DNA from: Armatimonadetes bacterium CG06_land_8_20_14_3_00_66_21
Lineage (GTDB): Bacteria; Armatimonadota; Abditibacteriia; CG2-30-66-41
Assembly: GCA_002779825.1 (NCBI GenBank)
Contig: PEVN01000010.1
Location: 1 to 32,725 of the forward strand
Length of the DNA stretch: 32,725 bases
Reading direction: 5' to 3'
Shown: piece after piece, positions 29,588 to 32,725 of the stretch
How positions within the stretch are numbered: the stretch's first letter is position 1
How the letters are laid out: each line of letters opens with the position of its first letter
Position numbers and translations under genes: made by a program
The notes under the pieces: generated by a model
Seen by the model: the letters and a program-made list of their open reading frames with translations, nothing else
Databases searched by the model: none
Told to the model about the DNA's origin: nothing

Positions 29588-29706
29588 GGCGCGTTTGCCC
29601 GCCGCACTCCGACGGTAGACCGAAGATGAACCTCCCTGCAGGGTCGCCTGATCCAGGCGCGGGCTCGTGTTCCCCCAACGGACCACGCCGTGCCGCGCGC
29701 GCTGTA

Positions 29707-31458
29707 ATGAAGACCCTCTTCCGCATCCTTCGCTACCTGAAAGCTGAGTCCCGGCTGGTGACAGCCGGGCTGGCCGCCTCGCTGCTGTTCATTGGGACGA
29801 CCGTGGTGATGCCGCAGGTCATGCGCGACCTGGTCGATCAAGTGTTCGTAGGGCACCGGATGGAGCGGCTGTCGGTGCTGGCGCTGGTCATCGTGGGGCT
29901 GGCGGTGTTGCGCGGCGGGCTGCTGTTTGCGCAGATCTACTGCGCGGAGATGCTGGCGCAGCGGGTGCTGCGGACGATGCGCAATCAGTTGCTGTCCCAT
30001 TTGCAGCGGCTGGAGTTTGGGTTCTTCGACGGCATGCCGACCGGACAGATCATCGCCCGGATCACCAGCGACATCGACTCGATGCGTCGGTTCTTGGGCT
30101 TCGCGCTGAGCCAGATGATCGTCAACGTGCTGCTGTTCTTAGGCGTGCTGCTCATGTGCCTGCACATGCACCCCAAGCTGGCGCTCCTGGCGCTCGGCAC
30201 TGCGCCGTTCATCTCGCTGTCCGCCTACCGCTTCGGCCGGCGCATCGGTCCCGCCTTCCGCGGGATTCGCGAACAGGTCGCCAGCGTGACGACGGTGCTG
30301 CAGGAGAACATCGCCGGCGTGCGCGTGGTGAAGGCGTACGTCCGCGAGCGGCACGAGATCGAGAAGTTCGTCAACGAAGCCGTGACGCTGCTGGAACGGA
30401 ACGTCGGCGCGGCGCGGCTCTGGTCGTTCTACTTCCCGTTGATGGACTTCATCGCCGCCGGCGGGACGCTCGCGATCCTGTGGTACGGCGGCGGCGAAGT
30501 GATCCGCGGGCATCTGACCCTGGGCGAGTTCGTGGCCTTTGAGGCGTACTTCATGCTGATGAGCTGGCCGATCATGGCGCTGGGATTCGTCATCAGCATG
30601 ACGCAAGGCGCCGTGGTCGCCGGTGGGCGGATCTTCGAGCTGATCGACCGCGAACCGGCCATCTGCACCAAGCCCGGCGCCCGCACCCTCCCCGACATGG
30701 CCGGTCGGGTCGAGTTCCGGGACGTGACGTTCGCCTATCCGGGCCGCGAAGACTCGCCAGCCGTGACAGACCTCAGCCTGGCGGTTGAGCCCGGCCAGAC
30801 CGTCGCCGTGATCGGGCCCACCGGCTGCGGCAAGTCCAGCGTCGTCAACCTGATCCCGCGATTCTACGACGTGACCCAAGGCGCAGTCTTGGTCGACGGC
30901 ACCGACGTGCGGGAACTGGACCTGGAATCGCTGCGCCGGTCGGTCGGCATCGTCCTGCAGGACACGTTCCTGTTCTCTGCCAGCCTGCGCGACAACATCG
31001 CCCTCGGCCGCCCCGACGCCACCGACGACGAGGTCCGCGCAGCCGCCCGCCAGGCCGCTGTCGCGCCGTTCGCGGAGAAGCTCGAGAAGGCGTACGACAC
31101 CGAGGTCGGGGAGCGCGGCACCCAGCTCTCCGGCGGCGAGCGCCAGCGCGTCGCCATCGCCCGCGCCCTGCTGCTCGACCCGAAGATCCTGATCCTCGAC
31201 GACTGCACCTCCAGCGTCGACGTCGAGACCGAAGCCGTTATCCAGCAAGCGCTCCGAATCCTGATGGAAGGCCGCACCACCTTCATCATCGCCCAGCGCC
31301 TGTCGACCCTGCGCACCGCCGACCTGGTCGTCGTGCTGAAAGACGGCCGGATCGTCCAGCAAGGCAGCCACGAGGAGCTGCTGCAGGCCGGCGGGTTCTA
31401 CGCGGAGATGCTGCAGGTGCACTTGCAGACGCAGGAGGCGGTGGAGGGCGGGGTGTGA
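29707..31458 (+). CDS. ABC exporter half-transporter, degenerate-site subunit (TM287-like)
   Basis: 583 residues: six-helix membrane domain (about 15-310) and ATPase domain. Walker A GPTGCGKSS (370-378, K376), Q-loop LQDTFLFS, signature LSGGERQR (474-481). Walker B ILILDDCTSSVD has Asp499 where the catalytic Glu normally stands, and the switch His is Gln530 (IIAQRLST). That pair of changes is known in the TM287 half of heterodimeric exporters, so this subunit should need a partner with a normal site; the next gene is the candidate. ATG of MKTLFRILRYLKAE chosen on homology; an ATG 81 bases upstream adds a non-homologous Pro/Gly-rich tail. No clear ribosome site. Confidence 0.93.
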   Translation: MKTLFRILRYLKAESRLVTAGLAASLLFIGTTVVMPQVMRDLVDQVFVGHRMERLSVLALVIVGLAVLRGGLLFAQIYCAEMLAQRVLRTMRNQLLSHLQRLEFGFFDGMPTGQIIARITSDIDSMRRFLGFALSQMIVNVLLFLGVLLMCLHMHPKLALLALGTAPFISLSAYRFGRRIGPAFRGIREQVASVTTVLQENIAGVRVVKAYVRERHEIEKFVNEAVTLLERNVGAARLWSFYFPLMDFIAAGGTLAILWYGGGEVIRGHLTLGEFVAFEAYFMLMSWPIMALGFVISMTQGAVVAGGRIFELIDREPAICTKPGARTLPDMAGRVEFRDVTFAYPGREDSPAVTDLSLAVEPGQTVAVIGPTGCGKSSVVNLIPRFYDVTQGAVLVDGTDVRELDLESLRRSVGIVLQDTFLFSASLRDNIALGRPDATDDEVRAAARQAAVAPFAEKLEKAYDTEVGERGTQLSGGERQRVAIARALLLDPKILILDDCTSSVDVETEAVIQQALRILMEGRTTFIIAQRLSTLRTADLVVVLKDGRIVQQGSHEELLQAGGFYAEMLQVHLQTQEAVEGGV

Positions 31459-31461
31459 GGG

Positions 31462-31545
31462 TGAAGTTCGAAGCTCGAAACACGAAGCTCGAAACACGAG
31501 ACCCGAAGCTCAAAGCCCGAAATGCGAGGCTCGAAATGCGGAGCG
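31462..31545 (+). repeat. CGAANNN heptad tandem repeat, left border of the cassette
   Basis: Twelve consecutive 7-base units in register: TGAAGTT, CGAAGCT, CGAAACA, CGAAGCT, CGAAACA, CGAGACC, CGAAGCT, CAAAGCC, CGAAATG, CGAGGCT, CGAAATG, CGGAGCG. It begins 4 bases after the ABC gene stop and ends 26 bases before the four-helix-bundle start. Degenerate but clearly periodic. Confidence 0.85.
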
Positions 31546-31571
31546 TGGGGCTTGCGCGAAGGAGGCGGGAC

Positions 31572-31964
31572 ATGCCGGAACAGCGAGAGCGGAAGCGATA
31601 TGATCTGGAGGATCGCACGTTGGAGTTCGCTCAGCGGGTTCGGCACTTCGTCAAGGCGTTGCCCAGGACGGTTGCGAACATTGAGGACATGCGACAGCTC
31701 GTGAGAGCCTCTGGTTCAGTTGGCGCCAACTACATCGAGGCGTGCGAAGCCCTCAGTAGGAAGGACTTTGTGTATCGCGTCAAGGTCTGCCGGAAGGAAG
31801 CCAAGGAGTCGGCGTACTGGCTCAGTTTGGTTGACACAGGAGATCACCCGGAAACACAGCAAGCGCGACAGGAGTTGCTTCAGGAGAGCACAGAACTGAC
31901 CAAGATATTCGGCGCGATCGTGCGGAAAACCGAGGAGCAAACTGAGCACGATGACGGTGCGTGA
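31572..31964 (+). CDS. Four-helix-bundle protein (23S rRNA intervening-sequence protein family)
   Basis: 130 residues. The family core is present: LEFAQRVRHFVKALP, then QLVRASGSVGANYIEACEAL, then RVKVCRKEAKESAYWLSL. It should form a pentameric helical bundle; biochemical role unknown. The ATG is set by AAGGAGG 7 bases upstream; the open frame continues upstream only through the heptad repeats. It lies between the two ABC exporter genes, same strand, and interrupts what would otherwise be a tight gene pair. Confidence 0.92.
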   Translation: MPEQRERKRYDLEDRTLEFAQRVRHFVKALPRTVANIEDMRQLVRASGSVGANYIEACEALSRKDFVYRVKVCRKEAKESAYWLSLVDTGDHPETQQARQELLQESTELTKIFGAIVRKTEEQTEHDDGA

Positions 31965-31971
31965 CTCGTCA

Positions 31972-32007
31972 GTTCCGGATTTCGCCATTCGAGCTTGGAT
32001 CTTGCCC
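31972..32007 (+). repeat. Direct repeat copy 1, right border of the cassette
   Basis: 36 bases that reappear at 32102-32137 with about six differences; both contain GGATTTCGCCATTCGA. The copies are 130 bases apart. Read on the minus strand they show the CGAANNN heptads of the left border. Copy 1 starts 7 bases after the four-helix-bundle gene stop. Confidence 0.75.
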
Positions 32008-32101
32008 AGAAGGCTGTGCGTCTTGCATTCGCCGTGTACGAGCAACTACGCGGCAGCGACGGAGGAGCGGCGTCGACGTGACGAACCCGCCTGATCCCTT
32101 G

Positions 32102-32137
32102 GTTTCGGATTTCGCCATTCGAACTTAGGACTTGCCT
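32102..32137 (+). repeat. Direct repeat copy 2, outer right border
   Basis: Second copy of the 36-base repeat. Its minus-strand reading gives CGAATGG, CGAAATC, CGAAACC in register. It ends 6 bases before the start of the second ABC gene. The 94 bases between the two copies contain no supported gene. Confidence 0.75.
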
Positions 32138-32143
32138 CAAGAG

Positions 32144-32725
32144 ATGGGCTTCCACCACGGACCTCCCGGTTCTGACGAAGAGACGAAAGTCAGCCTCTTT
32201 GACCGCAGACTGCTGGGTCGGCTGCTGCAGTTGGCGGCGCCGTATCGCTGGCAACTTGGCGTCGGCCTGTTCCTGGCGCTGGTGCTCTGGGCCATCGGGC
32301 TGGCGATGCCGTATGTGAAGAAGCTGGCCATCGACCAGGGGATCGTCGCCAAGGACCTCGGCGTGCTGACCCGGTTGGCGCTGTTCTCGCTGGGGCTGTT
32401 CGTCGTTCGGTTCGGCGCCAGTTGCGCCCGCGGGATCCTGTTGGCGGTGACCGGGCAGAAGGTGATTCTCGATTTGCGCGAAGGCGTCTTCGCGCACCTT
32501 CAGGCGTTGGGGCTGGACTACTACGAGAAGGAGCAGTCCGGCCGGATCATCTCTCGGCTGACCAACGACATCGACGCCATCAACGAGCTGCTCAGCTTCG
32601 GGCTGGTGGAGGCATTCGCCAATGTGGCGACGCTGCTGGGCGCTGTCGTCATCATGTTCCACCTGCACGTCGGGCTGACGCTGGCGTGCCTTGCCATTCT
32701 TCCGTTCATGGTGCTGGTCGTCGTC
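32144..32725 (+). CDS. ABC exporter half-transporter, partner subunit (cut by window edge)
   Basis: 194 codons, open to the window end. The translation begins MGFHHGPPGSDEETKVSLFD and continues with exporter-type membrane helices (LGVGLFLALVLWAIGLAMPY, LGLFVVRFGASCARGILLAV) and the coupling-helix segment YYEKEQSGRIISRLTNDIDA. This is the membrane domain of a type-IV ABC exporter. The ATPase domain lies beyond the edge. It would pair with the degenerate subunit upstream and should carry the catalytic Glu and switch His. AGAG just before the ATG is a poor ribosome site, perhaps because the cassette has replaced the original upstream sequence. Confidence 0.9.
   Translation, partial: MGFHHGPPGSDEETKVSLFDRRLLGRLLQLAAPYRWQLGVGLFLALVLWAIGLAMPYVKKLAIDQGIVAKDLGVLTRLALFSLGLFVVRFGASCARGILLAVTGQKVILDLREGVFAHLQALGLDYYEKEQSGRIISRLTNDIDAINELLSFGLVEAFANVATLLGAVVIMFHLHVGLTLACLAILPFMVLVVV

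Follow-up and report, generated by a model that had tools for sequence, protein, structure and literature searches.

In terms of anatomy, the closest described systems to the unit analyzed here are the intervening sequences of bacterial 23S rRNA genes, units of about 430 nt with a terminal inverted repeat of ~28 bp and one PF05635/S23 gene in the loop, which are cut by RNase III and whose origin, spread, and protein function have been open since their first description (PMC4990558). The rRNA elements of Coxiella burnetii and Leptospira share with the present unit the complementary ends, the PF05635/S23 gene in the loop, and a sporadic presence. The present unit differs in that it lies between protein genes, not in rRNA, and in that its arms are multicopy heptad arrays; whereas RNase III excises the rRNA elements without ligation, the stem of the present unit is a predicted stem only. 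The TIGR02436/PF05635 family has hitherto been described by its protein, and the solved relatives, 2GSC and 2RLD, contain five chains each. In the literature searched, which covered the family together with repeats, operons, and mobility, we found no description of heptad brackets around these genes or of their placement at operon junctions.

A similar fold is present in Avd of diversity-generating retroelements, a relation also given in PMC10053308, but the present cassette adjoins neither a reverse transcriptase nor a template repeat, and its neighbors are ABC exporter genes. With RAYT/REPIN and MITE-type hairpins the cassettes described below have in common a gene-bearing unit and matching gene-less hairpins in the same genome, whereas they lack a transposase of the RAYT Y1 type (the protein is a four-helix bundle), their words vary by cassette, and the hairpin loops are unrelated. 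The TAACTGA heptamer arrays of Beggiatoaceae (PMC4679880) are likewise intergenic and built of 7-nt units, but these are direct arrays of one word, and the cassettes have inverted pairs of many words around one gene family.

The window, by which we mean the whole stretch of 32,725 nt that was analyzed, is contig C170 of the 8.3-Mb genome of Armatimonadetes bacterium CG06_land_8_20_14_3_00_66_21. The features of the cassette and of its neighbors are collected in Table 1. As the original prediction had it, the unit at 31463–32136 fills the entire gap between the two exporter genes, from just after the last base of the upstream stop codon (31458) to just before the downstream ATG (32144). Apart from the four-helix-bundle gene, no sense frame of gene size lies between the ABC genes, with no transposase in the ORF list or among the Pfam matches, and the cassette is devoid of a recombinase or any other catalytic domain.

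Table 1. Coordinates of the cassette and the flanking exporter genes in the window
Feature	Position	Strand	Evidence and remarks
First ABC exporter gene (membrane domain and ATPase)	29704..31458	+	Pfam PF00664 and PF00005, ORF; stop TGA at 31456–31458
Left arm, eleven imperfect GAAnnnC (CGAAnnn) heptads	31463..31539	+	Period analysis, heptad profile, repeats D1
Four-helix-bundle (23S rRNA-intervening-sequence-type) gene, 130 aa	31572..31964	+	TIGR02436, PF05635, AlphaFold2, Foldseek; start ATG at 31572 with AAGGAGG 5′ of it, stop ends at 31964
Direct repeat pair carrying both right arms	31959..32136	+	Repeat D2; copies 31959–32006 and 32089–32136
Inner right arm, complementary heptads	31970..32004	-	Heptad profile, inverted repeat I1
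Outer right arm, second complementary-heptad copy	32100..32136	-	Heptad profile, inverted repeat I2, RNA fold
Second ABC exporter gene	32144..32725	+	PF00664; ATG at 32144 or TTG at 32132; truncated by window end

The claim that the gene is bracketed by nested inverted repeats of CGAA heptads was borne out by a profile of the left heptads, which was run along both strands of the full 32.7 kb. Its best non-self matches lie on the minus strand at 31977–31997 and 32107–32127, i.e., in the two right arms, and because the profile picks exactly these two segments, the nested inverted repeats are real. The left array has identities of 0.62, 0.71, and 0.69 at lags of 7, 14, and 21 nt (0.13–0.31 at the remaining lags) and is the top lag-7 stretch of the entire window, with 38 of 56 matches (mean 14.7, sd 3.7). 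Read on the minus strand, the inner right arm is CAAGATC CAAGCTC GAATGGC GAAATCC; the two copies of the 48-nt right-side repeat are 77% identical. General local alignment of the flanks gives a score of 22, within the swapped-partner range (null median 20, 99% 30). In the predicted RNA fold the left array pairs with the outer right copy, and the fold of the whole unit is no more stable than those of shuffles (z = -0.36). In the window, the cassette is eroded, and it is the heptad profile, together with the relatives, that makes it significant.

The window protein scores 73 bits against TIGR02436 (cut-off 24) and 46 bits against PF05635 (cut-off 33.8), and its AlphaFold2 model comprises four helices with a mean pLDDT of 95. 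A Foldseek search with this model returned 2RLD with a TM of 0.71–0.72, and also 2GSC, so that the protein has the same family and fold as the solved relatives; Avd (4DWL and 8UB7) was matched more weakly, with a TM of 0.63–0.64. The family is under purifying selection, with pN/pS of 0.05–0.26 in eight pairs. PF05635 has nine hits in the genome of the window, most of them at loci that carry left heptads and a right complement, the word differing per locus.

We surveyed such flanks across the phylum, where 61 genomes gave 92 testable loci and the threshold was set at the 99th percentile of swapped partners. Flank complementarity lies above this threshold at 69 of the 92 loci (true median 38 vs. 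null median 20), compared with only 12 of 92 for the same flanks in direct orientation. Among 60 control small genes (up to 700 bp, taken from 686 kb of two of the genomes), none has such arms (Fisher test against the 69 of 92, 2e-23). A second sample, evaluated with a stricter null, consisted of eighty named loci (79 testable) from Bacteroidota, Nitrospirota, Acidobacteriota, Desulfobacterota, candidate phyla, Chloroflexi, Planctomycetota, Verrucomicrobiota, Bacillota, and others; complementary flanks were found at 52 of the 79. The 125 arm pairs have a period of 7 in 89 cases and of 8 in 28 (7 or 8 in 117), with a median arm length of 33 nt and an identity of 87%, and the 5′ arm contains more G than C in 114 of the 124 pairs that differ. 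Cassettes of one genome resemble each other in arm word no more than cassettes of different genomes do (likeness 0.177 vs. 0.186), which rules out a single arm word per genome. Likeness increases only above 60% protein identity (0.42 vs. about 0.19); the arms therefore travel with the gene. The window cassette is a member of a class of operon-seam insertions that is widespread in bacteria and in which the word varies by place and the two sides match.

Individual arms show further arrangements. At L085 (1580–1900), the right arm is present ~4 times in a unit of ~100 nt, and the window shows the same arrangement in two copies. In L142 and L146, the left arm folds back into a heptad hairpin of its own directly 5′ of the four-helix-bundle start codon; pairing of this arm with the right one is possible too, and such alternative folds may control the gene.

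In terms of placement, with genes called by a simple codon-usage caller that may err in individual cases, 104 cassettes between called tandem neighbors are in sense and 2 in antisense, whereas among 329 ordinary neighbor pairs 249 share one direction. The left arm lies at a median distance of 0 nt from the upstream stop codon (interquartile range -3 to 8.5), and the right arm ends a median of 12 nt before the next start; the arm-to-arm length is 457–530 nt (interquartile). The sites include the groES/groEL junction (L023), the junction of two sugar permeases (L003, L089), and sdhA–sdhB at seven Bacteroidota loci and one Verrucomicrobiota locus, the identities of these genes resting on read translations and shared flanks. 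At sdhA–sdhB, the arms are octads in Bacteroidales and heptads in Sphingobacteria, and the words differ by locus and still match across the gene, a coevolution of the arms that rests on eight loci. L028 (1370–1880, genome G009) is a cassette within a coding gene that resembles an Eco57I-type methylase. The host frame is open through the entire cassette, with the four-helix-bundle gene in another frame, which argues against obligatory RNA removal at this locus.

Other arrangements were seen near these sites and elsewhere. At L092 (1190–2000), between groES and groEL, where a congeneric genome carries the L023 cassette, the four-helix-bundle gene is another one and has a long Arg/Gly-rich tail fused to it. 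On contig C40 of genome G001, GCACTCA heptad arrays at 103244, 208157, and 319707 (L104, L109, L114) lie apparently in-frame in host genes resembling uvrA, miaA, and NAD kinase, and mutually nested hairpin repeats at 97560–97750 and 99054–99224 (L103) flank a gene on both sides.

The proposed likeness to the rRNA intervening-sequence design gained a direct counterpart in the same phylum, where one locus (L060) is a true 23S rRNA intervening sequence whose arms are built of heptads. This locus is spanned in full by the Rfam bacterial large-subunit model, our own reading of the flanking sequence matches the site to the helix-45 region, and the arms are GGAAGAT-type heptads. Published intervening sequences are of the same size as the cassettes, and in their anatomy, their gene, and the type of their arms, the rRNA elements group with the operon cassettes.

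The ABC exporter pair itself is found without the cassette. In genomes G002 and G004, which belong to the same class as the window genome, the orthologous genes overlap in an ATGA, and in G010 the stop codon is followed immediately by the ATG. Cassette-free orthologous pairs are fused stop to start, and therefore empty sites exist; this comparison of sequences gives good support to an insertion at the ABC junction. At the site of L019, the congeneric genome G037 lacks the gene and has a small heptad hairpin of another word, and the site of L028 is uninterrupted in G047; at both sites, the junctions of filled and empty versions are too diverged for any target-site duplication to be read. Two outcomes that would speak against the original prediction, a cassette in every orthologous ABC pair and a lack of borders elsewhere, were both looked for, and neither occurred: homologous junctions free of the insert were found, and such borders are present at most loci of both samples. 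The anatomical reading given there was right, and it is far more general than the single locus could reveal.

Within our set, the window gene has its nearest relative in L085, which comes from another family of the phylum and has 62% protein identity. It too has CGAA heptad borders, and it sits between the ATPase and permease genes of a sugar transporter. Because the same cassette type is found at different operon junctions, it is mobile, or once was, in agreement with the mobile cassette that had been proposed. Six loci (L177, L195, L198, L202, L208, and L218) share a stretch of about 270–440 bp with 73–91% identity that is confined to the cassette, the surroundings being unrelated; the hosts are Desulfobacterota, Nitrospira, Geobacter, and a proteobacterium, and three of the loci have common termini. 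No near-identical dispersed copies of a cassette were found within one genome, which rules out recent transposition bursts. The two copies in Planctomycetes bacterium CA13 have 1388 bp in common, neighboring sequence included, and look like a local duplication.

Gene-less hairpins were surveyed in four genomes, in samples of at most 400 kb. A free hairpin matching the arms was found in the own genome for 15 of 27 cassettes, as against 1 of 81 foreign comparisons, and none of 20000 label shuffles was as high. When compared with cassette interiors, the hairpin loops give null-like scores except at L082 and L085, where the values are modest, which rules out an origin of the small hairpins by internal deletion. 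The window's own arm word was seen again in its genome only as solitary direct arrays, at six other places that are without the gene and mostly in spacers; the reversed control pattern of the CGAA word has zero matches in this genome. The spacers at G000:C162:6071, C423:24215, C431:8002, and C568:22765 (L316, L325, L326, and L329) are for the most part taken up by solitary, one-direction CGAAnnn arrays and have no four-helix-bundle gene, and some of these arrays begin shortly after the upstream stop codon.

If the arms were kept by pairing in RNA, G.U changes should outnumber A.C changes among arm mismatches. The observed counts are 153 and 163, respectively, or 32 and 42 when counted per locus. 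With no G.U excess, RNA pairing is not a visible constraint on the arms, and on present data RNA-stem selection is ruled out as their keeper. PMC4679880, drawing on earlier work, gives heptanucleotides as the commonest repeats of 5–11 nt in prokaryotes, and template switching is described in PMC8794818 as able to create and keep hairpins. We infer that slippage of the DNA by 7 nt at a time, together with inter-arm copying (template switching), accounts for the arms better than RNA selection does; stems would form in the RNA all the same and could be cut there.

The explanation that we favor, and hold to be fairly probable, is that an intervening-sequence-type cassette was inserted in sense at the exact junction of an ancestrally translationally coupled ABC exporter pair, with the arm upkeep and protein role proposed here. 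It builds on the anatomy of arms and gene, the insertion marked by empty orthologous sites, the second junction, and the membership of a true 23S rRNA intervening sequence in the same class. Having no promoter of its own, the cassette would be read from the operon transcript; the arms would close into a long-range stem, and RNase III would cut it as in 23S rRNA, so that a small message would be released and the two exporter messages separated. The splitting of the exporter transcript, which the original prediction had also raised, is plausible by this analogy. The arms themselves would be made and kept alike in the DNA. The Avd-like, pentamer-forming protein probably recognizes structure, namely, the hairpin formed by its own arms and the matching gene-less ones elsewhere in the genome, and it may help to spread or hold arms and hairpins. 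Points against this explanation are the lack of a G.U excess, the eroded arms of the window, the unexceptional stability of its fold, the lack of a catalytic domain and of near-identical dispersed copies, the solitary direct arrays, and hairpin loops unlike cassette interiors.

Some of these points fit other accounts. The arrays could be spacer filler, i.e., heptad repeats that slippage and template switching produce ubiquitously in spacers, with the four-helix-bundle gene as an ordinary small operon gene; the prevalence of heptanucleotide repeats, the capacity of template switching to make and keep hairpins, the solitary CGAA arrays in gene-less spacers of the window's genome, and arms without G.U preference are all as expected from this. 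Yet the control small genes carry no such arms, the cassettes of one genome share no arm word while each matches its own hairpins, and the arms accompany related genes, also across phyla, so that we regard spacer filler as unlikely. The own-genome matching of the hairpins would also follow from a structure-recognizing mobile system like RAYT/REPIN, in which the protein is a trans-acting factor, the cassette the gene-bearing form, and the small hairpins the gene-less form, the orientation bias being merely the need for transcription. The heptad hairpin without gene at the L019 site of the related genome agrees with such a system, which nevertheless seems to us somewhat unlikely given that there is no catalytic domain and no fresh copy, that the hairpin loops are not cassette-derived, and that target duplication is not demonstrable at the diverged junctions.

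The strong excess of sense over antisense cassettes despite symmetrical arms, and the fold match to the retroelement protein Avd, could point to an RNA-borne element that inserts at the RNA level or via reverse transcription with a host reverse transcriptase. Absence of a promoter explains the sense bias equally well, however, no reverse transcriptase adjoins the cassette, and L028 lies inside a coding gene; we consider an RNA-borne element quite improbable. Returning to the inserted intervening-sequence-type cassette, we suggest tentatively, as a possibility, a wider generalization, in which 23S rRNA intervening sequences would be a corner of a pan-bacterial mobile class. Such a class would have a pentameric four-helix bundle as its sole protein, heptad or octad hairpin ends recognized by structure and not by sequence, and a gene-less hairpin family of its own for each cassette, and it would function without a known transposase, integrase, or reverse transcriptase.

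These results show that an rRNA-type cassette is common outside rRNA, at operon seams such as groES–groEL, sdhA–sdhB, and transporter pairs. The class has measurable rules, namely, sense orientation, stop-codon placement, matched heptad arms, and matching gene-less hairpins, and with these both the question of mobility and the role of the protein become testable. Many operons thus carry an insert that likely alters the coupling of their genes.
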